Assembly (NCBI RefSeq): GCF_019320115.1
Contig: NC_089598.1
Location: 83,472,059 to 83,536,058, forward strand
Origin: Miscanthus floridulus
Lineage: Eukaryota > Streptophyta > Magnoliopsida > Poales > Poaceae
DNA: 64,000 bases
Direction: 5' to 3'
Part shown: one piece after another, positions 5,598 to 42,183 of the stretch
Layout of the letters: each line of letters begins with the position of its first letter
Position numbering within the stretch: position 1 is the stretch's first letter
Translations under genes and position numbers: made by a program
The notes under the pieces: generated by a model
Told to the model about the DNA's origin: nothing
The model's database searches: none
The model's input: only the letters and a program-made list of their open reading frames with translations

Positions 5598-8500
5598 CGC
5601 AAGCGAGTGATTACTAAAACTTCTAGTCACCCCAAGGCTTAGAAGGTACAGGTTGTTAGGTGGGTACCCTATTAGTCTCTGTGTGGACAGTCATTCCGTC
5701 AGCCTCAGAAGACTTACTAGGCACCTCCCACTCAGTACCATGCACCTACTTAGCAGGTGCAACAACAGCCTTAGGGATAGTAGGTTCCGCCTCGTTAGGG
5801 GCAGGGGAACAAGCCAAGTGCTTGTTTCAAGTTGGTAAGGAAGGCCACTATGCTCGTTAGTGTCCACAGAACTAGCCTGCGCAGTCTTCCCAACCTTCAG
5901 CCAACTCCCGTCTGGTCAAGAGGATGATTATCAAGAAGAAGGTGTCCATAAGCCGCTCTGGACAAGTCAACTACATTGAGGCTGAGGAGATTTTGTAGAA
6001 TGAACCTAGGATGGTTAGTATGTTTACCATTGATTCCTACCCAGCATATGTGTTGTTTGATTCTGGTGCATCACATTCATTCATGGGCATGGGGTTTACA
6101 CAGAGGCACAATATATCTCTTATGGCTATTCCTATTGCTTATAGAATCAGTGTTCCGGGTGCGCAGTTGTGCATTAATACTTGAACGGACATAGTTGGAT
6201 TAGTGCTAGCCACTCACACTTATCACCTCTAGTTCATGGTGCTGCCTAGGCAAGGCATAGATGCAATTCTAGGCATGAACTGGTTGCGAGTTTATGGGGT
6301 AGTCTTGGACCTTAAGCAGAGAGTTGTTGAGTTATGGTTTCCTTTTTCTGAGGATAGGATGTCTCTTCTTATGCCCTTAGATCTAGCCTTACCAGTTGCT
6401 GCTCATGTTGAAGCATATCCTGATCTAGCCTCTATTCCTATGGTTTGGGAGTTTCTAGATGTCTTCCCTGAAGATCTACCTACGTTGCCACCGGATAGGG
6501 ATATGGAGTTTTCCATTGAGTTAGAACCTAGCACTGCTCCTATATCATGGTGTCCCTACCACATGGCTCCTAAAGAACTAGCTGAAATGAAGAAGTAGTT
6601 AGAGGAATTATTAGAGAATGGATTTATCTATCCTAGTTCTTCACCATGGGGTTGTCTAGCTATTTTTGTGAAGAAGAAAGACGGTACTCTATGGATGTGT
6701 GTGGATTACTGCCCTTTCAATACGGTAACCATTAAGAACAAGTATTCTTTGTCTCGTATTGATACTTTGTTCGATCAGTTGGCTGGTGCCAAGGTGTTTT
6801 CAAAGATTGATCTTCGTTCTGGGTATCATCAAATTAAGATCCGGCCACAAGATATACAAAGACAACTTTCTCTACTAGGTATGGGCTGTATGAATACCTA
6901 GTCATGTCCTTTGGTCTCACTAATGCTCCTGCATTCTTCATGTATCTCATGAATTCAGTCTTTATGCCAAAGTTGGATAAGTTTGTACTGGTGTTCTTTG
7001 ATGATATTTTGATATACTCCAAGAACAAGGAAGAGCATGCCCAACATCTTTGGATAGTACTAACTGGATTAAGGGAACACAAGCTGTATGCCAAATTCAG
7101 CAAGTGTGAGTTTTGGTTAGATCGAGTGCAGTTTTTGGGACATGTTCTGACACCTGAAGGTATCTCTGTAGACCCAAGCAAGGTGCAAGATGTGTTAAAT
7201 TGGAAGTCTCCCAAGTCAGTGCATCAGATCCATCAGTTCCTTGGTCTTGCTGGTTATTATCGGTGCTTCATTCCTAGCTTCTCCATAATAGCTCAACCAA
7301 TGGCCAAGTTGCTCTAGAAAGATGTCAAATTTGTATGGAGTCTGGCTTATGAAGAAGCTTTTCAAGCCCTGAAGGAATTTCTTACCTCTGCTCCTGTTCT
7401 TGCCCAACCAGATATTGACAAGCCATTTGATGTGTATTGTGATGCCTCAAGGACTGGATTGGGATGCGTGCTTATGTAGGATGGACGTGTGATAGCTTAT
7501 GCTTCATGCTAGCTGAAAAAGCACGAGGTGAATTATCCCACCCATGATTTAGAGCTGGCTGCTATGGTGCACACTCTAAAAATTTGGAGGCATTATTTGT
7601 TGCGAAATAAAGTGTATATTTGTATGAATCACAAGAGCTTCAAATATATTTTCACTCAGTCTGAGATGAACATGAGGCAACAAAGATGGTTGGATCTAAT
7701 CAAGGATTATAATTTACAGGTTCATTACCATCCTAGAAAAGCTAATGTGGTAGCTGATGTTTTGAGCTAGAAGTCATATCAAGTTGAAGAAGCACCCTTG
7801 TTTCTCAACCATGCTGAGGTGGTAGCTCATATTGCTCTAGTCTCGGATTTACTTGAGCAAATTATTATAGAGCAAAGGTAAGATGTTTCAAAAATTCTGC
7901 ATATCAAGAAGTTAATTGCTAAAGGGCGTGGTCCTCATTTCAGTGTTGATGATCAAGGTGTAGTGAAGTTCAAGAACCGATTGGTTGTTCCGTCAAGTGA
8001 GGAGCTTAGAAGAAAGATTTTGGATGAAGCTCACAATTCCAAGTTATCCATTCACCTAGGAAGTAACAAGATGTACCATGATTTGCACCACTTGTATTAG
8101 TGGTCAAATATGAAGCAGGATATCACCAAGTACATCTAGGAATGTGACACTTGTTGAAGAGTTAAGGCAGACCATATGCATACACCAAGATTTTTGTAGC
8201 CCTTGCCTATCCTTGTTTGGAAATGGGAGGATATTTCCATGGACTTTGTTGTGGGTTTACCCTGCACGTCCAAGGGGTATGACTCTATTTGGGTCACTAT
8301 GGACCATCTCACTAAGTCCGCTCATTTTCTCCTGGTAGATACCAGATATTCAGCCAAGAAGTATGCCAAGTTGTATTTTGACCGGATTGTGATCCTGCAT
8401 GGAGTTCCTCTTACTATCGTCTTTGATAGAGGGTCAGTCTTTGTCTCTTGTTTTTGGGAGCAGCTCCAGGAATGTCTTGGTACTGGTCTCCTCAGAAGTT

Positions 8501-9290
8501 CAGCTTATCATCCGTAAACTGAGGGCCAAACAGAAAGGGTAAATTAGGTACTTGAGGATATGTTGAGAGCTTGTGCCATTTCTTTTCCTGAAAAGTGGGA
8601 CAAATGCTTGACTCTAGCTGAGTTTTCTTATAACAATAGTTATCAAGAAAGCATTCAAATGGCACCATTCGAGGCTTTGTATGGCAAGAAATGTAGAACA
8701 CCTCTTAACTAGGTTGAAGTGGGAGACCGTGGTTATTTTGGACCTGATTTTGTCAAGGAAGTTCGAGAGCAAGTTAGCATTATTTAGATCCATTAGAAGG
8801 CAGCTCAAAGTCATCAGAAAACTTATGCGGACAAGCGAAGAAGGCCCTTGCAAATTGAAGTTGGAGACCATGTGTATTTAAAGGCATCTCTCATGAGAGG
8901 TGTGCATCGATTTGGTGTTCGTGGGAAGCTAGCCCCTCACTATGTTGGACCTTACAAAATTTTGGCCCGGTGTGGTTCTGCTGCCTATCGTATCTAGGTC
9001 CCAGATATTTTGTCAGGTGTGCATAATATCTTCCATGTTTCCCAAATAAAGAAATGTTTGCGGGTCCGCGATGAAGCTATGAAAATTGAAGGACTTCCCC
9101 TCTAGCCCAACTTGTCTTATATTGAGCATCCTGTCAAGATCTTAGATGAAAAAGAAAGAGTGACTAGAAACAATATGGTGAAGTTTTATAAAGTTCTGTG
9201 GCAAAATCACTCGGAGGATGAAGCAACATGGGAGCAAGAAAGCTATATCTTGAAGCATTATCCCCACCTTCTATCTAGTTCACCGAGGTA
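5598..9290 (+). pseudogene. Pol polyprotein (protease-RT-RNase H-integrase-chromodomain), broken
   Basis: This continues the Tekay-type frame after the insertion. It has a Q-rich linker whose Gln codons have largely become TAG (5735-5805) and a decayed zinc knuckle (GKEGHYAR, about 5838-5860). Protease follows (VLFDSGASHSF near 6050, DAILGMNWL near 6260), then RT (MCVDY near 6697, [10 protein letters not shown] near 6808, catalytic FFDDILIYS near 6990-7020) with a frameshift near 6860-6900. RNase H has VYCDASRTGLGCVLM and THDLELAA. Integrase follows (ISMDFVVGLP, DRGSVF, TEGQTERV), with a chromodomain at about 9130-9270 (MVKFYKVLWQNHSEDEATWE). Most stops are TAG, with only two TAA and two TGA. 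The catalytic RT aspartates survive, but the product cannot be made. Chromodomains direct integration to heterochromatin marks. Confidence 0.9.
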
Positions 9291-25451: not shown

Positions 25452-25766
25452 TAACCCCTCTTGTAAATGTTTCATGGCAGGAACCTACGAGGGACACGTT
25501 GAAAGCATCCACAAGGAAGAGGCTACCGTAATGAATGACCTCAATGACAAGGTCAAGGGGGATGCAGGGGACCCACCCCACCTACAGGTGGAGCAGCTGA
25601 TGGCCCGGGGGATGCAGGGGACCCACCCCACCTATGGGTGGAGCAGCTGACGGCCCAACACCAAGAGCTCAAGGAAGCGCAACTCTAGCTCGAGCAGGAA
25701 CGCGTGGAGCTCGATCAAGAGATCGAGCGCCATAGAGGCGGTGGGTGCGCGTGTGCCATGGACCAC
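25452..25766 (+). pseudogene. Tat gag, middle fragment with a 50-bp tandem duplication
   Basis: Continues gag after the solo LTR (MAGTYEGHVESIHKEEATV, then HQELKEAQL..EQERVELDQE). A 50-bp unit beginning ggggatgcagggga is repeated at 25557-25606 and 25607-25656 with two or three differences; 50 is not a multiple of three, so the frame is broken. A TAG stands for Gln in QL*LEQE. The fragment ends at the insertion of the next element. Confidence 0.65.
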
Positions 25767-25771
25767 GATAT

Positions 25772-26537
25772 TGTTGATGCAAAAGTGGATCTACAAACAC
25801 AAAGGGCTAATACCCGAATCGATATCCAAGGCGTGCCAGTCGATTTGACCTGTTAATCGACAAGGATGAAGATACGAGCACTTTGGTCCTAACAACAGCG
25901 GTACGCCCGGAAGTCACGGCCAAGAGGTACTCACGCGGAACTCGAGGATCACCGAAGGTCGCACTGAAGCGATGCAGCTCGCTGAATCAATGAGAACTCG
26001 TAAAAAGAAAATAATGCAAATTGACGAAGTCACCGAAAAGTAAGTAGATGCAAATGGGAGTAAAAATTGGTTTTGATATTTATTGATATCTTTATTACAG
26101 TGCCCTTCACTCCATATTTATACCCTGATCTAAAGAGACACAACCAAACACAACTAGGACACCAGGTCCATATCTAAGGAAACACGTGACTCTTACATGA
26201 ATCATACTCTAACAAATATAGAAAAGGAAATCAACTCCTATCTATTTCCCTGTCCGCCTCAATTACGATGGAAATCTCACCGTCCTCCTTCCCATTGGCA
26301 TACTCCTTATTCCATCGGCAGTAGTCCTCAAGTCTTCCTTCATCGGCATCGACAATGACACCTTCAATCTCATTGGCAACGCCCGAGTCTAAATCAACCT
26401 CTCCATCGACCATCACCAGCTATCGGCAACCATCTTTACAAGCTGGCTTTCATCGGCTATCAAAGTATACAGTAACTTTCCTCTTGCCGATTAGTCCACT
26501 CTGATCATTTTGACACGTGCAAAAAACGGTGTCAACA
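25772..26537 (-). repeat. 3' LTR of the PMD-carrying Tat element
   Basis: 766 bp, TGTTGATGC..GGTGTCAACA, matching 37308-38074. On the minus strand it is preceded by a purine tract. It has a minus-strand TATA box at 26115-26122 and five copies of the ATCGG/CCGAT core. Confidence 0.95.
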
Positions 26538-26555
26538 CATGCCCCCCAATTTCGG
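26538..26555 (-). other. Polypurine tract of the PMD-carrying element
   Basis: On the minus strand AATTGGGGGGCATG abuts the TGTTGACACC start of the 3' LTR. Confidence 0.7.
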
Positions 26556-26947
26556 AGTATAAAACCATTAATGCTCTGAAATTTACTCCAGATTACCGTA
26601 ACTCATTCTCCAAGCCAAAACCTGATCTGTTATCAAATCCAATCAAATCTAATCCTGATTCATGCACTTCAGTAAATATCGCACAATCACCAACCACTCT
26701 TGCCTTGATTATGGTTAAGATACCAAAACAATAACCCATCGGCAAGATCTTAACATGATAATGCTGTCATTTTCAGAATTAAAATATCCTGTACCGATAT
26801 CTCTTCCAAGTCATGATTACTTGCCATCAACCCATCTGTACAATCTCCTGATTATCGTGCAAACAGTTACCATATCCATCTGAACCACTTCGACCTACAT
26901 GCGCGCGGCATAGAGATAAGTCCAAAATACCCCTACTCCAAGCGGCT

Positions 26948-26955
26948 TATAAATA
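26948..26955 (+). promoter_or_regulatory. TATA box of the antisense PMD gene
   Basis: TATAAATA in the context CGGCTTATAAATAGATTCC, a near-perfect plant TATA box. It is 163 bp upstream of the ATG at 27118, on the strand opposite to the retroelement. It implies that the gene has its own promoter, independent of the LTR. Confidence 0.7.
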
Positions 26956-27117
26956 GATTCCTCCAGAACACTCGTCTTCTACCCTCAGACTCCAATCTTT
27001 GACATTTTCTCTTTTCGGCGGCGACTCCGACGAACCACTGCACGACCTCAACCAACAAGAACCCTTCTCCAGCATTACCTCAAGTCTCCGGCTCGTGCCC
27101 TCATCTTCCTCAAGATA

Positions 27118-30100
27118 ATGGCAATCAACTTCGACATCCCCGCGGTTCGCTTTACTTCCATTACCTTTTACTTTGATTCCCCTAGTTTTTGCAAATCTAT
27201 ACAGTTGGTGATTTTTCCTTTCTTTTGTTCTCCGGATCCTTTAAACTTAGGAACTGCGCAACAAATTAGTTATTCCAACCGATCAGCCGCATGTCCAATG
27301 CCTAGGACCAATGGGCAACCCAGATCCAACCGATCTGATCAATGCAGAGGTTAACAGAATCCCCTTTAGAGCCCAACATTTCTCTCTGAATTTATGGAAA
27401 GATACATTCCGATCTTGGCCCAAAACCACCAAAGGGTGGAAAGATTGGTACTTGAGGGTTAATAGATCGATGCAAGTATACTGGGCAGAACGGAAGTTGG
27501 ACCAATGCATTAGGCTATCTATTGCCGATATGCAGAAGAATGAATCAATGATGATTGCAGCTGCTTACTTCTGGTCAGACACGACAAACACTTTTATGTT
27601 TGGACATGGCCCAGCTACTCGCACACTTGCCGATGTCCACATGCTCACTGGCTTGGATATTTCAACTGCCGATGAAGGCTCCATTTATGGTAGAAAATCT
27701 GAATATAGGGTGAATACCCGCAACATCGGCGGTTGGACGGGATACATTCAAGAATACCAGAAGACTAGGACACCTAACCAGAGGGAACATGCCACATTCT
27801 TGAATATGTGGTTAGAAAAATTTATCTTCTGTGGTCGATCAGTAGGACCAACCAACGCCTTCCTCCCCGCAGCTGAACTTTTGGCTAATGGTGTAAGGTT
27901 TCCTCTTGGCCGATACCTTCTGAGCTCCACTTATCATCTTCTTCATCAAGTGTCTCAGAAACTTCTGCTTGGCGAACCCATCGGCAACCTAGGAGGCCCG
28001 TGGTGGTTTATCAACATGTGGCTGAATGCCCATATGCACAAATGTTTGCAATGGGACCTTTTTGCCCAACAATTCCCACGAGAAATTGCTGAAGACCATG
28101 TGCTTGGGGATGATGAATCGGCAACACGCTCACCCCTCAATTTTGGTGAAGCCATAATTGTCCTTCCTAGAATAGAGGCCAATGAAGACCAGATCGGCAG
28201 ATTCTTCCAAAACTTCTACAATGGCCTTTCTCGTGATCATAGAGCCTGGGTACCTTATATTGACGAGGAAAACAAATTTCCCCTTCTTTTCAACTTTGCC
28301 GATGACACCCTGAATTAGGATAAGGAACTCATGATGGCCATCATTACTCCCAGGGCAATTCCAGTAAATACATTTGGTAGCGGGAAAAACACCAACATTT
28401 CGTATGAATTTTACAACCCATCGGCAGTATCCCGTCAATTAGCTTTTGGGCAACTACCAATCAAACTTTGCTTTGCCGATGTGATCAAACCCAGGGAAAC
28501 AATCACCTGTGGAACAGATTGGAACAAGGTAGTACAACTCTCCCCCGATGCCGATACCACAGATGTTGATATATCCACCTGGACGCCAGTATCCTTCATC
28601 ACCGAGTCATACAAGCAATGGTGGCGAGAGTGGAAGGAACAACTGTTTGCAACATCTGTTCACACATATCGGCACATGATCGACCCTGAATACACCATTC
28701 CCGATGACGCAGTAAGTTCCTTTTAGCTCCCTTCCGCTTTTTCCTTTCATATATCGGTAGCTAACTCTCTCGTGACAGGTTAACAACCCAGCACCAACTA
28801 TGAGCAAAAGTGGGAAACCCTTCGATCTTTGGCCTGTTTCCCTGATATCACCGATTGGCTACAATGCTCCCACCTTAGCCGCTTTGACTCACCAGAAGAT
28901 CCGTACCAAGACCATCACCTCCAAGTCCAAATTGGCTACAGCCAGGGCCACTCCATCGGCTGCTGCTACAACCTTGGTCAAGGCATTCAAGGTAACAACC
29001 TTGTTTATTTCTACTCATGCCGATCACAAACTATATTAACATTAATCACCAGGGGGTAAAAGCTGCTGCTGGATCGTCATCGGCAATTCCTCCGATATCA
29101 AGCAACATTTCTTTTGATGAACCTTCAGAGGTATCTTCTTAACTTTACATATTATCTGTTAAATATCATACCTTACACTTGTTTTGCAGCAACAATTGGG
29201 TACATCAGCAAGCGTACCAGATGTCCAAGCTTCACAATCAACAAGTGCCGATGCCCTCCAGCCAATCGTTGCCGATGCCCAAGCAAAGCGCAAAGCTTTA
29301 ACAGATGCTGAAGCACAGCCAAAACGACAAAGGTCCATGCCGATCCCTACATCTGCCCCAATGTCATCGGTCATCATACCTCAAGAGCCAACCACCGATG
29401 AAGTCACAGAGGATATCCCATCGGCAAGCTCAACTGATCCCCCACACGACATACTCTAGGTTGCTTCCTCTAGTCAAGCACAGGAAATTGCCTTGAAACA
29501 GGTAAACCGATTAACCTAGCTGATTTACAATACTCATACTTATCCTTAACTAGCCTCCTTTCCTTTCCCTCAGGAACAAGACTCCCCAAACAGCCTATTC
29601 TCCTTCGCTATTGACGTCTCTGACGATGATGGAGAGGAAACAAGTTCTTCCCTTGCACTGGGAACAATATCGGCAGAAACTAAGTCCATGTTGGAAGCTC
29701 TCCTGAACTTGCTACAGCAGGATACCGCCCAACTGGTAGATGACTCGGACCCCACAAAGGCAATTTTCAAAACAATCCGTGGCCAGGTCCCTGCCGATGT
29801 TGAAGAAGTACTCTTCCCAGCAGCCCATTTAGAAAGTCGCCAACTACAATATCAACGGGCTGCTCAACGTATTGCCGATAGAGCAGCTCAGGCTCAACTC
29901 AAAGAAGAGATGCTACAACTGAAACAAATTGCCGATGATAAGCACAAGGGCATCGGCAACTTGTAGACTTCGGGTGCTGAACTTAAGCAGAAAATCTTGG
30001 ATTTATCAGCAAGGAAGATGGCTCTATTGGCTGAATTGAAGGAAGTCGATGCAGCCTTAACTCATGCTCAACAAGAAGAAAGCCAGCTACCCAATGCCAT

Positions 30101-30269
30101 CAAAGCCCTTCAACAAGAAAGAGATATCCAGGCTCGCAAAGCTTTGGCCATGAAGAAAAAACTCAAGCCTGTGGAGGGTACTGCCGATGACGATATCAAA
30201 GAAATGGAGGAAGCCGAGCAGATTCGCCTGCGTGCGATATTAGCTATCCAATCCTTGTTGAACTTGTAA
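27118..30269 (+). pseudogene. Plant mobile domain (PMD) protein gene, six exons, antisense to its host element; three TAG stops
   Basis: Exons: 27118-27144, 27251-28711, 28779-28991, 29053-29130, 29190-29501, 29574-30269. The five introns (59-106 bp) all run GT..AG and all are phase 0, giving 2787 bases (928 codons plus stop). Exon 2 encodes a PMD (PF10536-like): SLNLWKDTFRSW, FWSDTTNTFMFGHGPATRTL, ADVHMLTGLDIS, GPTNAFLPAAELLANG, LGGPWWFINMWLNAHM. Exons 3-5 are low complexity (Ser/Thr/Ala/Pro); exon 6 has an acidic stretch and a long Glu/Lys/Gln coiled coil. Three in-frame TAGs (28316, 29457, 29964) suggest CAG decay. In plants the PMD proteins MAIN and MAIL1 act in silencing and gene expression; the role here is unknown. 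Introns survive because they lie antisense to the element RNA. This copy is probably inactive unless TAG is read through. Confidence 0.85.
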
Positions 30270-30354
30270 TCTTGTTTATTGTATCGGCACTTTATGAGAC
30301 ATTGACATCCTTGCATAATTCTAGCCGATAGGACTGTTATCGGCACTTATACTT

Positions 30355-33300
30355 TTATGCATCCATCCAGATACTAGGGTAATATTTCTTTAAATATTTT
30401 CCATTTAATGCTCTAGGAAACACAACCCCTTCGAGGGTTTCTAGAATATATGCGTTACCAGGAACAGACTGATTTATCCGATATGGACCTTCCCAATTAA
30501 GAGACCACTTTCCAAACTTTGAACTTTTAGTCCCAATCGGTAAAATCAATTTCCAGACTAGATCTCCATCGGCAAATTCCTTTACCTTCACCTTCTTGTC
30601 ATACCATCTGGCTACTCTTTTCTTATTTTCTTCGATGCTAACTAAAGCCCTTAACCGATGACCCGCCACATCTTCCAACTCATCCTTCATAAGAGTATTA
30701 TAATCATCGGCTGTCAGCTGATCTTGAGAACGTATTCGCCTAGAGCCAACTTTAATTTCCCAAGGCAATACTGCATCGTGTCCATATACTAACTAATAAG
30801 GCGTTACTTTGGTTGCACCATGACATGACATCCGATATGACCACAAGGCTTCATTTAATACTGTATGCCACCTCCTAGGATTTTCTTCAATTTTGCACTT
30901 AATGAGTTTGATGATCCCTTTGTTAGAAGCCTCAGCTTGACCATTAGCTTGAGCATAATATGGAGAAGAATTTAAAACTTTAATTCCCATACCTACAGCA
31001 AACTCATCAAATTCTCCTGATGTAAACATAGTGCCCTGATCGGTAGTGATAGTCTGAGGAATACCAAATCGGTAAACAATATGTTCTTTCACAAAATCAA
31101 TCATATTAACCGATGTCACCTTTTTCAAAGGAATTGCCTCAACCCATTTTGTGAAATAATCAGTAGCAACCATAATAAATTTATGTCCCTTACTCGATGG
31201 CGGATAAATCTGACCAATGAGATCAATAGCCCATCCCCGGAACGGCCACGGTTTGATTATAGGGTTCATAGCCGATGCAGGCGCTCTTTGAATATTACCA
31301 AACTTTTGACATCCCTGACATCCTTTAAAATATTTAAAACAATCTTCAAGAATAGTCGGCCAATAGTATCCATTCCTTCTGATCATCCACTTCATCTTGA
31401 AAGCCGATTGATGCGCACCACACACTCCTTCATGAATTTCACCCATCAAAGTTCTCGATTCATCACTGCCAACACATCTGAGTAAAACTCCATCTATAGT
31501 TCGATAATATAATTCATCATCGAGGAGCACATACTTGGTAGCTTGGAACCTTATACATCTTTCAACCTTTTTATATGGATCCTTTAAATAATCGACAATC
31601 TCCTTTCTCCAGTCATTGGTATCAACTGCCGATGTTAGCACTTCCTGAATAAGTTGATACCCTGAAGCATGCTGAGCTAGTCGATTAGCTTCCTCATTAT
31701 GCAATCGAGAGATATGTTCAAGACGAAAATCTCTAAATCCTTTCAACAATTGCAAACATTTTTCATAATACGAAATCAAAGCTTCACTTCGGCATTCATA
31801 AAGTCCAGCCAATTGATTTATAACTAGCATAGAATCACCAAAGATTTCAACAGCATCGGCACGTATCTCCTTCAGTAACTCTAACCCTTTTACCAAGGCT
31901 TGGTATTCAGCCTGATTGTTCGTCGACGTAGCAACAATCGGCAATGAAAACTCATACTTCCTTCCTTGAGGTGAAATTAACACAATGCCGATACCTGCTC
32001 CTTCACCACATGTGGACCCATCGAAGAAAAGTGTCCAGGGAGCAACCTCCAGAGAGTCCACTGTATCACAATGCTGAGTGACAAAATCAGCCATTACTTG
32101 CCCTTTAACTGCCTTAGTTGATTCGTAACGTAGTTCAAATTCTGATAATGCTAAAATCCACTTGCCGATTCTACCACTTAATATCGACATCGACAGCATA
32201 TACTTGACTACATCGTCTTTGCATATGACCGTACATTCGGCAGATAACAAATAATGCCTTAATTTGACACACGAAAAGTATAAACATAGACATAACTTTT
32301 CGATGGCCGAATACCTCGTCTCAGCATCCACTAGTCTTCTGCTCAAATAATAAATAACACGTTCTTTCCCTTCAAATTCTTGAATAAGAGCTGAACCGAT
32401 AACTGTATCATCAGTTGATAAATATAACCTAAAAGGCTTCCCGTGTTGAGATGGAACTAGCACTGGAGGATTTGTTAAATATTTCTTAATTTCATCGAGG
32501 GCTAACTGCTGCTCAGCTCCCCATACAAATTCCTGATCGGCTTTCAATTTAAGTAATGGACTGAAAGCCTTGATCTTACCCGACAGATTAGATATGAATC
32601 TTCTAATGAAATTAATCTTACCGATCAACGATTGCAATTCAGTCTTATTGGCAGGAGCAACCACCTTGCTAATTGCATCAATAGACTTCCTACTGATTTC
32701 GATGCCCCGCTGATGCACCATAAAACCCAAGAATTGACCTACCGATACACCAAATGCACATTTATTAGGATTCATCTTCAATCCATGCTTCCTTGTGCAC
32801 TCCAGTATCTTTCGTAGATCGGCTAGATGTTTTGTGATATCTCCAGACTTAATCACCACATCATCAATGTAGATCTCCACCAATGTGCCGATGTATTCAT
32901 GAAAAATAAAGTTCATAGCTCTTTGATAAGTAGCACCGGCATTTTTCAAGCCAAACGTCATGACTACCCACTCAAACAACCCTACATGACCTGGACATCT
33001 GAAAGCAGTCTTGGGAATATCTTCTTCAGCCATGAATATTTGATTGTAGCCTACATTTCCATCCATAAAGCTAATAATTTGATGTCCGGCTGCAGCATCA
33101 ATCAATAAATCAGCAATCGGCATTGGATAGCCATCCATCGGTGTGGCTTTGTTGAGATTCCTAAAATCAATACAAACACGAAGTTTTCCATTTTTCTTAT
33201 ACACAGGAACCACATTAGAGATCCACTCTGCATATCGACACTGCCGAATAAACTTTGCCTCAATTAATTTAGTTATTTCGGCCTTAATATCAGGAAGTAT

Positions 33301-33591
33301 ATTAGGGTTGCATCGGCGCGCTGGCTGCTGATGTGGCCGAAATCCAGATTTGATAGGTAACCGATGTTCAACTACCGATCGGTCTAATCCAGGCATCTCA
33401 GTATAATCCCAAGCAAAACAATCTTTATACTCTTTTAACACATTAATTATTTGCTGCTTACACTTGGAATCTAACTTAGCACTAATAAAAGTAGGTCTTG
33501 GCCTATCGCCATCACCGATATCTACTTCTACTAAATCATCTGCCGATGTGAACCCTTGACCTAATTTTCCATCATCGGCAAACCTATCCAT
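30355..33591 (-). pseudogene. Pol polyprotein (RT-RNase H x2-integrase), near intact, one TAG
   Basis: The frame opens at ATG 33591 and runs 932 codons to a TAG at 30793-30795, then continues in the same frame to 30355. RT has VCIDFRNLNKATP, FMDGNVGYNQI and the catalytic YIDDVVIKSG near 32860. A first RNase H follows (YLSRRLVDAETRYSAIEKL), then a second, archaeal-like RNase H (WTLFFDGSTCGEGAGIGIVL, NNQAEYQALVKGLELL), the paired arrangement known in the Tat lineage. Integrase has a zinc-binding N-terminus (CQGCQKFG) and the DDE residues in WAIDLIG, TTDQGTMF and ANGQAEASNKG. The tail has GDLVWKLILP and KWSLNWEGPYRI. It overlaps the protease stop as TAATG in the -1 frame. One CAG-to-TAG change would account for the defect. 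Confidence 0.9.
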
Positions 33592-36500
33592 TAAAACTCT
33601 TCTTCAGAACCGACTGCTTGGATCGGTGGAATTTCATAATCAGCAACTCTAAGGAACTCTTTTTCCCAAGCTTCTCCTGATATGCATTTAGTTCGCTCAT
33701 AAGTATCTGACTCTGCCGATGCGATGATATAAGAAGAATCACCAGGGACAACCTCAATCTTATCCCCAATCCACTGTATGAGGCATTGATGCATTGTAGA
33801 AGGAACACAACAATTAGCATGAATCCAATCCCTCCCTAGAAGCAGATTATATGCACCCTTGCCGTTAATAACAAAGAACGTCGTCGGCAAGGTTTTGCTG
33901 CCGATGGTCAATTCAACGCATACTGCCCCTTTAGCTGGTGACACATTGCCTTCAAAATCTTTCAGCATCATATCGGTTTTGGTCAAGTCTTGATCTCCCT
34001 TACCAAGTTTCCGATACATCACATAAGGCATAATATTAATCGCAGCCCCTCCATCAATAAGTACCTTAGACACAGGCTGCCCATCAACCCTGCCCTTCAC
34101 AAACAAAGCCTTAAGATGCTGTCTCTCGTCATCGGTAGGTTTCTCAAAAATAGCCATCATTGGATCTAGTGTCAACTGAGCTACTTGATCAGAGAGAACA
34201 ACTTCTTCCTCATTATCAGATAGTGCCAAAAATTCCATCGGCAACATGAATACCATATTAACATCTGCCGATGGACCCTTATTTTTGTGTTTTACCTGCC
34301 ATTGCTGATGACCGGACCTCTCATTGGAGGAATTTTCCTCTTGGTATAAATCCTCCTGACGCTCACGTTGCATCCTCCTTCTCTATGTCTTTGTTAGACC
34401 CTCCGGGCACCATCGAGGAAACTTGGTTTTCCAAACCGGCTGATAACAGGTCCTAGTCGATTCTACACGGCGTATATTGGGGTCCCTGTAGAATATTTCC
34501 TCATCGGGAACTCTTGCATTTACCATTTCCTCAAGCTCCTCTTGATTCCTTGGAAAATATCCAGCGCGTTTACCAAGCCTTTCATGTACACTAAGTCTGC
34601 CCCCCAGCCGATCATGTACTGATGCTCTGCTTCTGATCGGCTCATTGATAAATAAACCCTGATTGCCAGGTTGAAATCTCCTTTCTGATCGATTGACCCC
34701 ATAATAACCATTGCACTCAGGGCAATTTTCAACAGTTGGCAATTTAATACCTTCTTCCTAGCAATGGATAAAAAACGGGCACCTCCAATGATCTTTATGC
34801 CGATGCCATTCTTCCCGACGTCTTTCTTCTTGCTGTTGTCGATATCGATCATTACGCTGACGCCAACCCTCCTGCTGCCTTCGATGAGTAATCACAATGC
34901 CAGGTCGAGGAGGTTTTTTAGAACTACTGCTTTCTCCTAGCAAACCCTTACTTTTTGCATCATCGGTAGTTATCCGATGTTGGGGATCCACTGATGCGTT
35001 TTTCTCAGCAGCCTCTGACATCAATACCTTGGTCTTCCCTTTGGCCTCCAACGTATTTGCTGGAAAAGGGTGTTGATCAATTCTCATCGGCCTTTGGGCA
35101 TTGGAAGTACCAAACTTAATTCTCCCAGATTCAATAGCCGATTGTAACTGTTGCCTAAACACCTTGCACTCATTTGTACTGTGTGAAGTTGCATTGTGCC
35201 ATTTGCAATACAAGATCTTCTTCAACTCTTCTGCCGATGGGATCACATGATTAGGTGACAGCTTAATTTGACCCTCTTGAAGCAGAAGATCAAATATCTT
35301 GTCGGCCTTGGTGATATCAACGGTAAACTTTTCTGGCTCTTTTTGACCAAAGGGACAAGATATCGGCTTTTTATTCTTAACCCACTCAGCTAAGCCGATA
35401 ACTGGTTCTTCATCAGAATCAGAATCTCCTACTTCTTCAACAAATGATACCTTTTTACTCCAATTCTTTTTAGGTTCAAAAACCCTAGTGTCTTGATCAG
35501 AAATCCTTTGCACAAGATGACTAAGACTTTCAAACTCCTGAGAAGCATATCTATCTTTAAGATGTGGCAATGACCCTTGGAAAGCCAGATCGGCAAGCTG
35601 CCGATCATCCAGCACCAGACTGTAGCACTTATTTTTCACATCTCGTAGCCTTTGCACAAAGCTCTCTACCGATTCATCATTGCGCTGTCTCAATTTTACT
35701 AAATCGGTAAGCTTCTTTTCATGGATTCCAGCAAAGAAATACTTATGAAATTGTTTTTCTAGATCAGCCCAGGTAATAATAGAATTTGGTGGTAATGAAA
35801 TGAACCACGTAAATGCCGATCCAGACAAAGATGATGAAAATAATCGAACTCTTAATTCATCTCTGCTAGCTGCCTCTCCACATTGAATAATAAAGCGATT
35901 GACGTGCTCCATTGTTGATGTATCATCTTGCCCGGAGAATTTAGTGAAGTCTGGTACCTTGTACCGATTTGGGAGAGGAATTAAATCATATGCAGGAGGA
36001 TATGGAGTCCGATAAGAATAAGTACTGACCTTGGGCTTTATCCCAAACTGATCCTTCATAATTTCTGCTATCCTATCGGCCCAAAAAGCATCAGCTTCCT
36101 GCTGACGAACTGGCTGAATTTCTACAGGAGGTAGCTGCTGATATCCTTCCACATATCTTTGTGGCCCACGATCTCCAGCAATCGGTATATTTGCCGTTAC
36201 TTGTGGTCCATTAACCTGTTGGAAAGGATTCATCGGCTGAGCTGCCGATGCTTGATTCTGGACGCCAGCTTGCATATAACCTTGTTGAATCCCTGCAATC
36301 TGTTGATTTTGCTGAACTGTATGTTGAACAGGTAACTGTCCTGACCAACCATTATTAGAACCCATCGGTACAAAACTTACCGATGGCTGGTAATTTGCTA
36401 ACATTGTTGGATAATTATAACCAGCTTTAGGCATAAACTTAACCCTAGTTTGACTCATAACAGGGGCTTTCTGCTGCATCGGCAGTAGGCTTGCCGATGG

Positions 36501-37265
36501 ATTTGAACTGGGCGTTTGAACCAAAGGCATCTGGAAACCCCCTGGAGTTGGTTGCACAGTAGTTGCTGTGGCATATTGAGTCACTTGGGCCATCGGCGAA
36601 ACAGCCGATGGTATAGGAGCTTTTCCTACTGCGTCAAACACTTGAGGTAATCCAAGATTGAAAGCAGATGACTCCAGAGGCATACCATATCCCCACCAAT
36701 TAGTAGGAATCTGGCTATTCTGAGACACAGGGCCTGACATAGCTGATGCCGATAGATCTGTACTAAGCTGAATTCGTCCTCCTGGTAGTACCGGATCTGA
36801 TCGTATCGGTGTAGATTGAATATTAGGTAAGCCTGCCGATACTGGAGAAGAAGTAACTTCTATACCCACAACGGCCGAGGGAGCCGATGGAGTATTGACA
36901 GATGCTGGCTCTGGTTGGTGATAGGCAGGCCCAACATAATGCGGTGACGCTTGTCCTTCTTTGAGAGTTCGAACCACAGCATTATGAACAGTATTGGACA
37001 ACACATTGGAATGATTAATCAAAGCATGATTTACTGCAGAATTAACCATCTCTTGAAGTTTACCAGGATTGGAGTCAAAGGTAACTTGTCGAGGCAACGA
37101 CAAATCTTGCTTCTGGATGTCTTGTCCACTCTTGTTCAGGCTAAATGATTTCAGACAAAGCTGCCTGTATTCTTCTATGGCCTTTTCCATAGGCCTCTGC
37201 TCTTCCTTAAGATCTTCTTCTGATACCGCGATAATGTTCCCCGCATCAATCTCAGAATTGAACAT
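33591..37265 (-). pseudogene. Gag-protease polyprotein of the PMD-carrying element, two TAG stops
   Basis: One minus-strand frame. Its 5' part opens with TTG at 37301, inside the PBS; the first ATG is at 37265 and I use that. After a long Pro/Gln/Ser-rich N-terminus, gag has YKVPDFTKFSGQDDTSTMEH, FTWFISLPPNSIITW and CKWHNATSHSTNECKVF (a Cys/His pattern). TAG stops fall at about 34758 and 34383. Protease then has VLIDGGAAINIMP (catalytic D-G-G) and NLLLGRDWIH, and the frame ends at TAA 33591-33593. Gag builds the particle and protease matures it. The D-G-G-A variant is common in Tat-type proteases, so I do not read it as damage. Confidence 0.88.
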
Positions 37266-37281
37266 ATTGATCGGATTGATT

Positions 37282-37300
37282 GGTCCCACCGGGCGTGCCA
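37282..37300 (-). other. Primer-binding site of the PMD-carrying element
   Basis: On the minus strand TGGCACGCCCGGTGGGACC lies seven bases after the LTR end, in the form seen in Tat-lineage elements. Confidence 0.65.
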
Positions 37301-37307
37301 AAAGATG

Positions 37308-38074
37308 TGTTGATGCAAAAGTGGATCTGCAAACACAAAGGGCTAATACCCGAATCGATATCCAAGGCGTGCCAGTCGATTTGACCTGTTAATCGACAAG
37401 GATGAAGATACGAGCACTTTGGTCCTGACAACAGCGGTACGCCCGGAAGTCACGGCCAAGAGGTACTCACGCGGAACTCGAGGATCGCCGAAGGTCGCAC
37501 TGAAGCGATGCAGCTCGCCGAATCAATGAGAACTCGTAAAAAGAAAATAATGCAAATTGACGAAGTCGCCGAAAAGTAAGTAGATGCAAATGGGAGTAAA
37601 AATTGGTTTTGATATTTATTGATATCTTTATTACAGTGCCCTTCACTCCATATTTATACCCTGATCTAAAGAGACACAACCAAACACAACTAGGACACCA
37701 GGTCCATATCTAAGGAAACACGTGACTCTTACATGAATCATACTCTAACAAATATAGAAAAGGAAATCAACTCCTATCTATTTCCCTGTCCGCCTCAATT
37801 ACGATGGAAATCTCACCGTCCTCCTTCCCATCGGCATACTCCTTATTCCATTGGCAGTAGTCCTCAAGTCTTCCTTCATCGGCATCGACAATGACACCTT
37901 CAATCTCATTGGCAACGCCCGAGTCTAAATCAACCTCTCCATCGACCATCACCAGCTATCGGCAACCATCTTTACAAGCTGGCTTTCATCGGCTATCAAA
38001 GTATACAGTAACTTTCCTCTTGCCGATTAGTCCACTCCGATCATTTTGACACGTGCAAAAAACGGTGTCAACAG
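37308..38074 (-). repeat. 5' LTR of the PMD-carrying Tat element
   Basis: 767 bp, the copy of 25772-26537. The eight differences are A/G at 'ctacaa/ctgcaa' and 'ctaac/ctgac' (CHG) and six CG/TG or CG/CA changes, two of them inside the repeated ATCGG core. Confidence 0.95.
37651..37658 (-). promoter_or_regulatory. TATA box of the 5' LTR driving the element RNA
   Basis: TATAAATA on the minus strand (plus tatttata), conserved at 26115-26122 in the other LTR. Confidence 0.65.
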
Positions 38075-38079
38075 ATGTG

Positions 38080-39257: not shown

Positions 39258-41100
39258 GCCATGTCTGAGTGGTTAGCGAACCCTGTTCTTGTTCAAAAAA
39301 AGAATAAAGAATGGAGAATGTGCGTTGATTACACTGATCTGAACAAACACAGCCCTAAGGACCCCTTCGGTCTACCATGGATAGATGAGGTTGTAGACTC
39401 CACCGTCGACTATGAACTACTCTCCTTCATCGACTATTACACTAGCTATCACCAGATATCCTTAAAAGAGGATGACCAGATCAAAACATCATTCATCATG
39501 CCTTTCGGTGCATATTGCTATACCACCATGTCCTTTGGACTCAAGAACGCTGGGGCAACTTACCAAAGGGCCATCTAGATGTGCCTTGATCAATAGATAG
39601 GCTGCAACATCAAAGCTTACATCAACAATGTGGTCATCAAGTCCAAGACCGCTGACAATCTCATCGCCGACCTCGAAGAAACATTCGCTAACCTAAAACG
39701 ATACAGATGGAAGTTGAACCCTTCAAAGTGCATCTTTGGAGTTCCATCTGGCATACTCCTAGGCTACATCATCAGCGCTGGTGGCATCGAGCCCAACCCA
39801 GGCAAGGTCACTGCCATCACCAACATGAAATGGCCAACCTACGTAAAGGACATACAGAAGCTTACAGGCTGCAAGGCTGCTCTCATCCGCTTTATATCAC
39901 ACCTCGGCGAAGAGGGACTACCATGCTTCAAACTCCTAAAGGCCTCTGAGCGCTTCTCCTGGTCGGATGAGGCAGACATAGCTTTGAAGTAGCTCAAGTT
40001 GTTTCTAATGAAGCCTTCGATCATGATGGTGCCTCGACCAGACAAAACCCTATTGATCTACATCACTGCCACTTCTCGCATCGTTAGCATAGCTATCGTC
40101 GTCGAGGCGAGGAAGCCGAACAAGCCTATAAGGCACAATGTTCGGTCTACTTCATCAGCGAGGTCCTTAACGAGTCCAAAACTCATTATCCTTAAGTTCA
40201 GAAACTGCTTTATGCCATTCTAGTCACGTCGCGCAAGCTCTGCCATTACTTCGAGTATTACAAGATCGCCGTGGTCACTGAGTTTCCTCTAGGGGACATC
40301 CTCTGCAACAAAGAGGCCAACGGCTACATCATCAAGTGGGCTATCGAGCTCAGCACTTACTCCATCGAATTCAGAAGCAGGCCTACCATCAAGTCATAGG
40401 CGCTCGCTAACTTCGTTGCTGAGTGGAGTGAGATCCAAGAGCCCATCCCCGCTACTTGCCCCGAGTACTAGGCGATGTACTTTGATGGAGCCCTCAACAT
40501 CAATGGTGCTGGTGCATGCATTTGATTCATTATGCCGACCAAGGACAAGCTCCGATACGTTCTCCGAATTCATTTTCTAGCCTCCAACAACGCCACCAAA
40601 TATAAAGCATGTCTCCATGGACTCCGTATAGCCGTCGAGCTCGGCATCAAATGCCTCATGGTATATGGAGACTCCGCACTGGTCATCAACTAGCTCAATA
40701 AAGACTGGTCCTATTCCAGTGAGAAGATGCACACATACTGCGCTAAAATCAGAAAACTCGAAGGGAAGTTCTACGGTTATACGTGGTACGAGATCAAAAT
40801 TAGCTCGTCGACCACCTATCTAAGATTCCGCCTGGCTCTTCGTTCAAGGCCTCTTTACACTGTCTATTAAGGAAGAGAAGGAAGTTCAAGAAATCCCCCC
40901 CACGCTGAGCAGTTGGTACTTACAGTACCTTCCCCGGCCACCGACTGGAGAGAACAGTTCATCAAGTACCTCACCAGCGCCGACATACCCACTGATAAGA
41001 CTAAAACTAAATACCTAATCCATCGTAGCAAGCATTACGTGCTGGTAGATGGGAACTTGATGAGGAAAAATGCCAAGGAAGGGATACTATAGAAATGCAT
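39258..41100 (+). pseudogene. Tat RT and RNase H, broken, active site YINN
   Basis: RT begins EWLANPVLVQKKNKEWRMC (39264) and has VDYTDLNKHSPKDPFGLP, MSFGLKNAGATYQRAI and LNPSKCIFGVPSGILLGYI. The catalytic Y-x-D-D is AYINNVVIKS (39613-39645): both aspartates are asparagine through G-to-A changes, so RT is dead even apart from the stops. RNase H-like segments follow: RYVLRIHFLASNNATKYKAC (about 40553-40613) and GIKCLMVYGDSALVIN (40645-40692), with the Asp of MYFDGA kept at 40480. Stops are mostly TAG. Confidence 0.85.
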
Positions 41101-42183
41101 CACCCAAGAAGAGGGAGTGAAACTACTTCTCAAAATTCATTCTGGTTCTTATGGCAATCACACGGAGTCGAGAATCCTAGTCGGCAAAGCTTTTTGAGCT
41201 AGTTTTTACTGGCCCACAGCCATCACCGACGCAGAAGACCTCGTCCGACGTTGTGAAGAATGTCAATTTTTCACCAAGCAAATACACATGCCGGCATAGG
41301 AGTTGCAGACCATCCTAGCTTCTTGGCCTTTCGCATGCTAGGGACTGGACATGATCTGACCTTTTAAGCCAGCGCTAGGTAGTTTCTGGTACGTGTACAT
41401 CACCATTGAAAAGTTCTCCAAGTGGATCGAATACAAACCACTTATTTCGGCTACTGCAAAGAAGGCAGTCGAGCTCTTCGAAGATATCATCCACAAATTT
41501 GGTCTCCTGAATAGCATTATCACCGACCTCGGAACTACATTCACTGGTCATCATTTTTGGGACTTCTGCGAAGACCGATGCAACTCCATCAAATATGTCT
41601 CCATTGCCCATCCTAGAGCCAATGACTAGGTCAAATGGGCGAATGGCATGATCCTTGATACCCTCAAAAAGAGGCTATATCAGAAAGAGGAAAAGCATCA
41701 GGGCAGATGGCTCATAGAGCTCCCAACTGTGGTCTGGGGATTGCGCACTCAAGCTAGTCATAGCACCGGTGTGTCTCGATATTTCTTGGTCTATGGCTCA
41801 GAAGCCATACTTCCAGCGGACATTGCCTTTCGAGCACCTAGGGTGGAACATTATAATGAAGAGTAAGACACAGCTATTCGGACAGAGGATGTCGACAGGG
41901 CCAAAGAAGAATGCCTAATCACTTGCATCCGCATAGCCAAATACCTAGAAGGCTTGCGAAGATACTACAACCGCAACATCAAAGGTCATTCATTTGCTAT
42001 CGGCGACCTTGTTCTCCGCAGAAAATAAAAAACTGAAGGGATGTACAAGCTCTCCTCCCCCTAGGAAGGGCCTTACGTGGTCAACGAGGTTACCCAACTA
42101 GGGTCTTACCAGCTATGTGATTTGGATGGAATCGATATCCCCAATTCATGGCACATCGAGCACCTTATATGTTTCTATCCTTG
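41100..42183 (+). pseudogene. Tat integrase, broken
   Basis: The zinc-binding part reads CEECQFFTKQ (about 41254). The core has WYVYITIEKFSKWIEY (41388), IITDLGTTFTGHHFWDF (41517) and RAND*VKWANGMI (41613-41652), where the catalytic Glu expected as E-R-A-N is Lys. The C-terminal part has LPTVVWGLRTQASHSTGVSR, VYGSEAILPADIAFRAPRVE and a GPYVVNEVTQLGSYQL beta-barrel-like tail ending at 42183. The first core Asp falls near GLDMI*PF (41341-41365), damaged by a stop. Confidence 0.82.

Follow-up and report, generated by a model that had tools for sequence, protein, structure and literature searches.

The question raised by this locus is why a single transposable element in the window, the stretch of 64,000 nucleotides of Miscanthus floridulus DNA that was analyzed, should carry one short DNA word more than one hundred times. 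The word has the core ATCGG (CCGAT on the other strand), is found about 125 times in both coding and noncoding DNA of the element and seems to have left an imprint in the proteins of related elements of rice. For these reasons it probably serves as an address that a protein reads along the DNA of the element itself.

The element is a Ty3/gypsy retrotransposon of the Tat/Ogre type with a plant mobile domain (PMD) gene; LTRs, gag-pro-pol, second RNase H and PMD frame are all present. Its parts are the following:

25772..38074, gag-pol on the minus strand: Ty3/gypsy element of Tat/Ogre type, 125 cores
25772..26538, minus strand: LTR, 3' in the pol sense, TATA box at 26115 (minus strand)
27311..28726, plus strand: PMD reading frame, antisense to gag-pol, with an in-frame TAG at 28316
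28727..30354, plus strand: remainder of the PMD gene, introns and further exons (borders guessed), 22 cores
30355..30768, minus strand: C-terminal end of the pol frame, a separate ORF in the present copy, 5 cores
30793..33591, minus strand: reverse transcriptase (RT), RNase H, second RNase H and integrase, 26 cores
33591..34373, minus strand: aspartic protease frame, 8 cores
34758..37301, minus strand: gag, 30 cores
37308..38074, minus strand: LTR, 5' in the pol sense, TATA box at 37651

Pfam profiles identify gag, protease, RT, RNase H, a second RNase H and integrase between the LTRs, and PMD on the plus strand. The second RNase H (PF13456, residues 523-642) lies next to the RT_RNaseH domain (residues 384-485); an extra RNase H domain after RT-RNase H is a hallmark of Tat elements. 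In its LTRs, gag, protease, RT, two RNase H domains, integrase and additional PMD gene, the element resembles the PMD-bearing Ty3/gypsy elements (Tat/Ogre, PMD-A). The two LTRs differ at nine places over 767 bases, and the copy is broken, the TAG interrupting the PMD frame and stops splitting gag, pro and pol. No target-site duplication was seen at the element ends, and no second copy of the element was found within the 64-kb window.

The PMD frame matches PF10536 (E value 4.2e-22) on 27311-28318. One relative, P0056, matches this part at 97%, and the alignment runs across the TAG to 28723 at 95.5%. The exon borders of the PMD gene past 28708 are guesses, and the codon tests were made without the later PMD exons. 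The PMD protein has no match in the PDB at E values up to 1, and its predicted structure is poor (pLDDT 44.7), with no recognizable DNA-binding fold. According to the accessible parts of the literature, the PMD-A clades are exclusively gypsy-encoded (PMC5418596), PMD is present in 57% of Ogre elements (PMC6317226), and the PMD proteins MAIN and MAIL1 are silencing factors (PMC5418596). The same accessible parts call the molecular role of PMD undetermined or unknown (PMC5418596, PMC9289625); Ikeda et al. write that the function of PMD remains to be determined and speculate on anti-silencing for the MULE-borne PMDs (PMC5418596).

A hand count had put the number of cores at about 125 in 12.3 kb, in both orientations. 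The exact count is 125 (68 CCGAT and 57 ATCGG) among 163 across the entire 64 kb, far above the 18.5 expected for 25772-38074 from a dinucleotide Markov model or the 18.6 (maximum 32) from 300 dinucleotide shuffles. The longer form ATCGGCA is present 58 times in the element, with 1.3 expected and no more than 6 in any of 300 dinucleotide shuffles. The most over-represented 5-, 6-, 7- and 8-mers of the element are all this same ATCGG/CCGAT word, and the best 7-mer score is 48.9, versus 7.0-10.8 in six other, partly overlapping 12.3-kb stretches of the window. The original prediction that the motif is dense in one element, with four cores in the DNA beyond it, is borne out by a density of 10.2 cores per kb versus 0.7-0.8 per kb in the remainder of the window, and by 4 cores in the 5 kb to the right. 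A k-mer count had been proposed as the check, and it found that other CG-containing 5-mers are not equally enriched: of the other CG-containing words among the 25 top-enriched 5-mers, all but ATCGA (42 versus 24.9) overlap either the motif itself or its T variant.

Sites are located in U3, in the exons and introns of the PMD gene, in gag, pro and RT-RNase H-integrase and in the spacers, and are sparse (3.9 cores per kb) in 26539-27310. The motif had been described as running through the LTRs, which is correct for the U3 upstream of the TATA box. The left LTR (25772..26538) has 5 intact cores in 26314-26491 together with ATTGGCA at 26294 and 26372, and the right LTR (37308..38074) has 6 intact cores and two ATTGGCA, all of them upstream of the respective TATA box. 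However, there are no intact cores in 25772-26293 of the left LTR, which is R/U5, as inferred from the TATA box, plus the TATA-proximal U3, nor in the same part of the right LTR.

The sequence logo, built from 119 of the 125 sites with the right LTR excluded, reads C ATCGG C/T A/T A/G and is sharp, becoming flat past 8-9 bases. Single-base variants of the core are mostly at about background counts; those above background are ATCGACA (9 versus 1.4), ATCAGCA (7 versus 2.7) and, weakly, ATTGGCA (5 versus 2.9). Adjacent sites switch orientation in 77 of 124 pairs, versus 62 by chance (p 0.0038), and gag contains several close inverted pairs, e.g., 34962/34974, 35589/35601, 36364/36380, 36478/36494 and 36592/36605. 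Alternation and inverted pairs, a pattern noticed post hoc, would suit a dimeric binder. Helical phasing of the sites was not detected, powers at periods 10-11 being 0.06-1.35 and not raised among the 23 periods tried. The highest site-spacing periods among the 23 were 165 (7.2), 11.5 (4.3) and 147 (4.3). There is no motif-bearing tandem array among the 6 tandem-repeat rows found.

Codon bias, CpG survival or mutational bias might in principle yield such an excess as a by-product, since the motif contains a CpG and the CpG observed/expected ratio in the coding parts is 0.5-0.8. Synonymous codon shuffling falls well short of the observed counts in gag (30 cores versus a mean of 7.3) and in RT-RNase H-integrase (30793..33591; 26 versus 8.6). 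Observed counts also exceed the shuffled means in the protease frame (8 versus 2.8), the pol end (30355..30768; 5 versus 1.6) and two PMD frames (11 and 6 versus 4.0 and 2.3), with some of the 1000 synonymous shuffles matching the observed count in the pol end, the second PMD frame and pro. ATCGGC is used at 52 of the 98 places where the peptide permits it, 10.1 being predicted by the genes' own codon usage, and at 13 of 17 such places in the PMD frame (27311..28726). The share of CpGs that lie inside a core is 33-45% in the gag, pro, pol and PMD parts versus 2-3% outside the element. The claim that codon bias is insufficient therefore stands, and the sites in introns and U3, the absence of equal enrichment among other CG words and the lack of the same excess in the remainder of the window also argue against a by-product. 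A remark that decay of the CpG inside the motif would cost function receives no help from the LTR pair. Six of the nine LTR differences are at a CpG, and three of them strike an ATCGG/CCGAT core, two within an ATCGGCA; changes since insertion thus affected 3 of 7 motif CpGs versus 3 of 33 other CpGs. Motif CpGs were without protection and changed no more slowly than the others, so survival of CpG decay does not account for the motif. CpG survival as the source of the motif is rejected on the codon-shuffle counts and the LTR changes together, and the by-product explanation in general is barely conceivable.

For related elements, proteins were back-translated to find the DNA words that they could encode more often than composition predicts. 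The scan assumes uniform codon use and independent positions, the rank among all words being the safer figure, and its power is modest: applied to the proteins encoded by the window itself, it places ATCGGC no higher than 9 (gag) and 5 (pol) among 2080 six-mers. Among the matches listed, the named protein relatives are from grasses (Oryza, Panicum miliaceum, Lolium and, for PMD, a Saccharum hybrid), and the more distant pol relatives are from many eudicots, e.g., Trifolium, Medicago, Cajanus and Prunus. No close relative was found among viral and genome contigs, the lone match (L001, on a contig filed under a bacterial MAG) being a far gypsy-type element of 29% identity with 1 core in 5.4 kb.

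A pol tree of 121 rows (FastTree, midpoint root) provided 66 clades of 4-90 rows, in which the scan was limited to tripeptides not shared with the window. In the 27-row clade of the element, ATCGGC ranks 1 of 2080 six-mers (z 7.1), with ranks of 1-21 in its subclades; outside this clade it ranks 224 in the 24-row sister clade, 239 in the other 70 rows and 1045 in a mostly legume clade. The rows of the 27-row clade with organism names are 12 from rice and P0273, labeled Gossypium australe by its source. The ATCGGC excess in this clade is found in all six frames (observed/expected 1.3-2.0), and ATCGGCA ranks 72 of 8192. TCGAAA (z 6.9) was considered as another saturating word, in the mostly legume clade, and was dropped because two of six frames carry most of it. 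When rows are grouped by identity without a tree, ATCGGC ranks 1-2 of 2080 at identities of at least 0.70 and of 0.60-0.70 and 169-422 below, and for the 5-mer ATCGG the rank in the two nearer groups is only 10-43 of 512. Among gag relatives, ATCGGC ranks 1 at identities of at least 0.60 (5 proteins), 14 at 0.45-0.60 (2), 1 at 0.35-0.45 (14) and 767 below 0.35 (34). Among PMD relatives it is weak in the closest groups (ranks 289 and 331 of 2080), and ranks 7 at 0.6-0.7, 4 at 0.4-0.6 and 2 over all 120. The word seems, from the proteins that could encode it, to be common to the clade, at partly different places.

The base that follows ATCGGC seems to have changed between the rice-type branch (T) and the close branch (A). 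In eleven rice pol rows ATCGGCT ranks 1 of 8192 and ATCGGCA 138, whereas in nine close pol rows ATCGGCA ranks 1 of 8192 and ATCGGCT 250. For this comparison, tripeptides in common with the window were retained, and the rows were all of the clade's 12 rice rows except P0294, together with the 9 close rows; the groups, like the identity groups and the conservation groups, were set after the first results were seen. With shared tripeptides removed, AGCCGAT (that is, ATCGGCT) tops the 7-mers of a 16-row clade, and ATCGGCA has rank 3 in the 10-row clade surrounding the window and rank 12 in the 9-row one. In the identity-grouped scan of differing tripeptides, ATCGGCA ranks 1 of 8192 at identities of at least 0.70 and falls to 690 at 0.60-0.70, which we read as the A-to-T change. 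With window tripeptides kept, the rank of ATCGGCA among 8192 words is 118 for 9 close gags, 31 for 3 rice proteins and 2567 for 19 far gags. Individual rice rows are uneven in the identity-grouped scan, with z values of 5.4 for P0201, 1.2 for P0294 and 0.1 for P0217.

It had been reasoned that, if the word matters, motif positions should decay more slowly than their surroundings in related copies; this was tried on proteins, as the identity to the window of residues encoded by motif codons versus residues matched by amino acid, and the outcome is mixed. In pol, motif residues are 0.756 identical versus 0.638 for matched residues in 15 rice-type rows (p 0.012) and 0.525 versus 0.549 in the outgroup; the difference between rice-type rows and outgroup has a p of 0.0002, or 0.022 with the 24 sister rows, a hand-made list, as outgroup. 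Extra conservation is also found in the close group of five gags (0.803 versus 0.712, p 0.011) and in PMD (0.830 versus 0.679, p 0.003). However, it is not significant in the close pol group (0.871 versus 0.818, p 0.067) or in the wider group of 18 gags (0.395 versus 0.362, p 0.22). Because the PMD outgroup is conserved too (0.619 versus 0.448), PMD shows no clade effect. Fourteen control words were examined in pol; a difference at p <0.05 is confined to GCCGA, CGATA and CATCG, all of which overlap the motif, and CGGCA, which overlaps it as well, shows no difference.

A protein that reads the word is the best account of an excess that runs through DNA coding in either sense, through introns and through U3, together with the signs of the word in the clade. 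The original prediction let the protein read the motif along DNA or RNA; the near-equal strands (57:68) and the unremarkable RNA folding favor double-stranded DNA, and the RNA half of the suggestion is less supported. We propose that CATCGG(C/T)(A/T) would be a self-address in double-stranded DNA, read by a sequence-specific DNA-binding protein over the full length of the integrated element or of its double-stranded cDNA. Copies with more sites would gain, and selection would in turn place the word wherever the encoded proteins and the LTR signals allow. The likeliest benefit would be in cis and at the level of chromatin, with the word bringing in a factor that acts on its own family only, either against silencing or in favor of transcription. 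More than 100 sites would need such a benefit in cis, so recruitment for activation or anti-silencing fits better than self-silencing. The likeliest reader would be the element's own PMD protein, and a host factor would come second. For the explanation as a whole, comprising word, reader, cis benefit and PMD as likeliest reader, we consider the balance to be even. Weighing against it are the lack of a known DNA-binding fold in PMD, the TAG in the PMD frame of the present copy, the variants ATCGACA and ATCAGCA above background, and a sharing of the word within the clade that rests on back-translation.

An action of the word in RNA, with ATCGGCA and TGCCGAT as a pairing or packaging signal, would be in keeping with the alternation of orientation beyond chance, with some close inverted pairs of gag, which could form stems, and with predicted folds in which motif-to-motif pairing takes up 214 and 270 of 728 motif bases. 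However, the 200-base folds are no stronger than those of the flanks (mean z -0.50/-0.58 in 71 windows per strand, versus -1.20/-1.20 in 85 per strand), and a packaging signal would prefer one strand, so we consider an RNA role very improbable. A host transcription or chromatin factor may instead be the reader, the element having gathered sites for transcription or openness; the position of every LTR site upstream of a TATA box and a PMD protein with no recognizable DNA-binding fold point in this direction. Against it, a promoter role needs no sites in introns and across gag-pol, and the apparent base change after ATCGGC would be easier with a fast-evolving protein of the element. The core of DREB-type factors is GCCGAC, which is not enriched here (TGCCGAC is seen once, with 0.7 expected), and a DRE-like motif is rejected as the identity of the word. 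A host reader is on balance unlikely, if still a serious candidate.

The protein that binds the motif could also be Gag or integrase, acting on double-stranded cDNA or on the integrated copy and serving in packaging, in import into the nucleus or in keeping the element from inserting into itself. The sites lie across the internal region on both strands, and the clade is known here by its gag and pol, but R/U5, which is also part of the cDNA, is without sites, and we know of no precedent in LTR elements; we regard this as improbable. Finally, the element's PMD protein might bind the motif in order to silence or limit its own family as a form of copy-number control, like the genic PMD proteins, MAIN and MAIL1 being silencing factors in the accessible text of PMC5418596. 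A motif that silences its bearer should, however, be lost and not gathered to more than 100 sites per copy, and self-silencing appears distinctly improbable.

The favored explanation, a self-address that benefits its own copy, has a possible analogue in the VANC proteins of the VANDAL transposons of Arabidopsis. According to the accessible parts of the sources, VANC21 binds YAGTATTAY in the noncoding regions of VANDAL21, often in tandem repeats, VANC6 has different target words, AGTTGTCC/AGTTGTAC (PMC5735166, PMC10398659), and related VANDAL families use diverged words (PMC5735166). The likeness lies in a short word piled up in its own family, which for the present element is seen in the DNA of one copy and for its relatives in proteins. 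It may extend to words that diverge among families, represented here by ATCGGCA in the close rows and ATCGGCT in the rice rows, as judged by protein back-translation only. Nevertheless, VANDALs (MULE) are DNA transposons, whereas the present element is an LTR retrotransposon, and VANDAL motifs lie in noncoding tandem repeats, in contrast to the dispersed sites here. The LTR carrier and the sites running through coding DNA indicate that the element is not a member of the VANC system, but it may work like one. A VANC-like anti-silencing address, perhaps read by the element's own PMD protein, is plausible as a hypothesis.

Another transposon-encoded protein, TnpA of maize Spm/En, binds to a short motif repeated within the element that encodes it and promotes demethylation. 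Spm/En is a DNA transposon and carries these motifs only at its ends, in contrast to the sites throughout the LTR element described here. MAIN and MAIL1 offer a likeness in that PMD proteins are tied to a short DNA motif, the DOWN motif CATGCAGTTT of the Arabidopsis MORC1 promoter, for which the accessible text does not show direct binding (PMC9899485). This motif is unrelated to the ATCGGCA logo and is rejected as the identity of the word. Among the openly accessible papers listed, preprints aside, no saturating motif in PMD, Ogre or gypsy elements came to light.

In the part of the literature found, the transposons described as encoding a sequence-specific anti-silencing activity are the VANDAL DNA transposons. 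Many gypsy elements of plants, as well as silencing proteins of the host, contain a PMD, and the motif offers a ready-made probe for PMD function. The word placed through the genes of the element suggests selection for a DNA word that is strong enough to shape protein sequence. Our more tentative idea, which we hold to be possible rather than probable, is that, throughout a PMD-bearing clade, the full length of the element, genes and all, has become an array of binding sites for the PMD protein it encodes, with the address changing together with its reader between families. If this is true, the clade would be the retroelement counterpart of the VANC system, with proteins written around an address.

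Along the Tat/Ogre-type retrotransposon, the orientation of the ATCGG/CCGAT motif alternates more than expected by chance. Within gag (34962-36610), inverted motif pairs lie close together, at a spacing of 12-16 bases, and some of these pairs, for example 36364/36380, have matching flanks. A scan of 23 periods, using pair distances of up to 400 between the motif sites of 25772-38074, gave raised power (7.2) at a period of 165 bases, which is perhaps an edge effect.

The window also contains gypsy pol remnants other than the pol of the element, and a short tandem repeat lies immediately outside the element:

6434-9021, plus orientation, gypsy pol remnant
39264-42181, plus orientation, gypsy pol remnant
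25557-25656, 50-base unit in two head-to-tail copies

The two remnants are approximately 23-41% identical to the Tat pol proteins used, and the motif excess is absent from the stretches that hold them. At the ends of the element, comparison of 25767-25771 with 38075-38079 revealed no matching target-site duplication.

The pol protein P0273, labelled as Gossypium australe (identity 0.67), was placed inside the window's own clade, adjoining sequences from grasses, a placement that reflects transfer, a contaminant or a mislabel. A gypsy-type pol is encoded, at 29% identity, by L001:1237-5016, on a contig assigned to a Rhodospirillales MAG, and is probably eukaryotic contamination.

The antisense plant mobile domain (PMD) gene of this copy has an in-frame TAG at 28316, and in the PMD relative P0056, which represents 99 member sequences, reading continues past the matching site.
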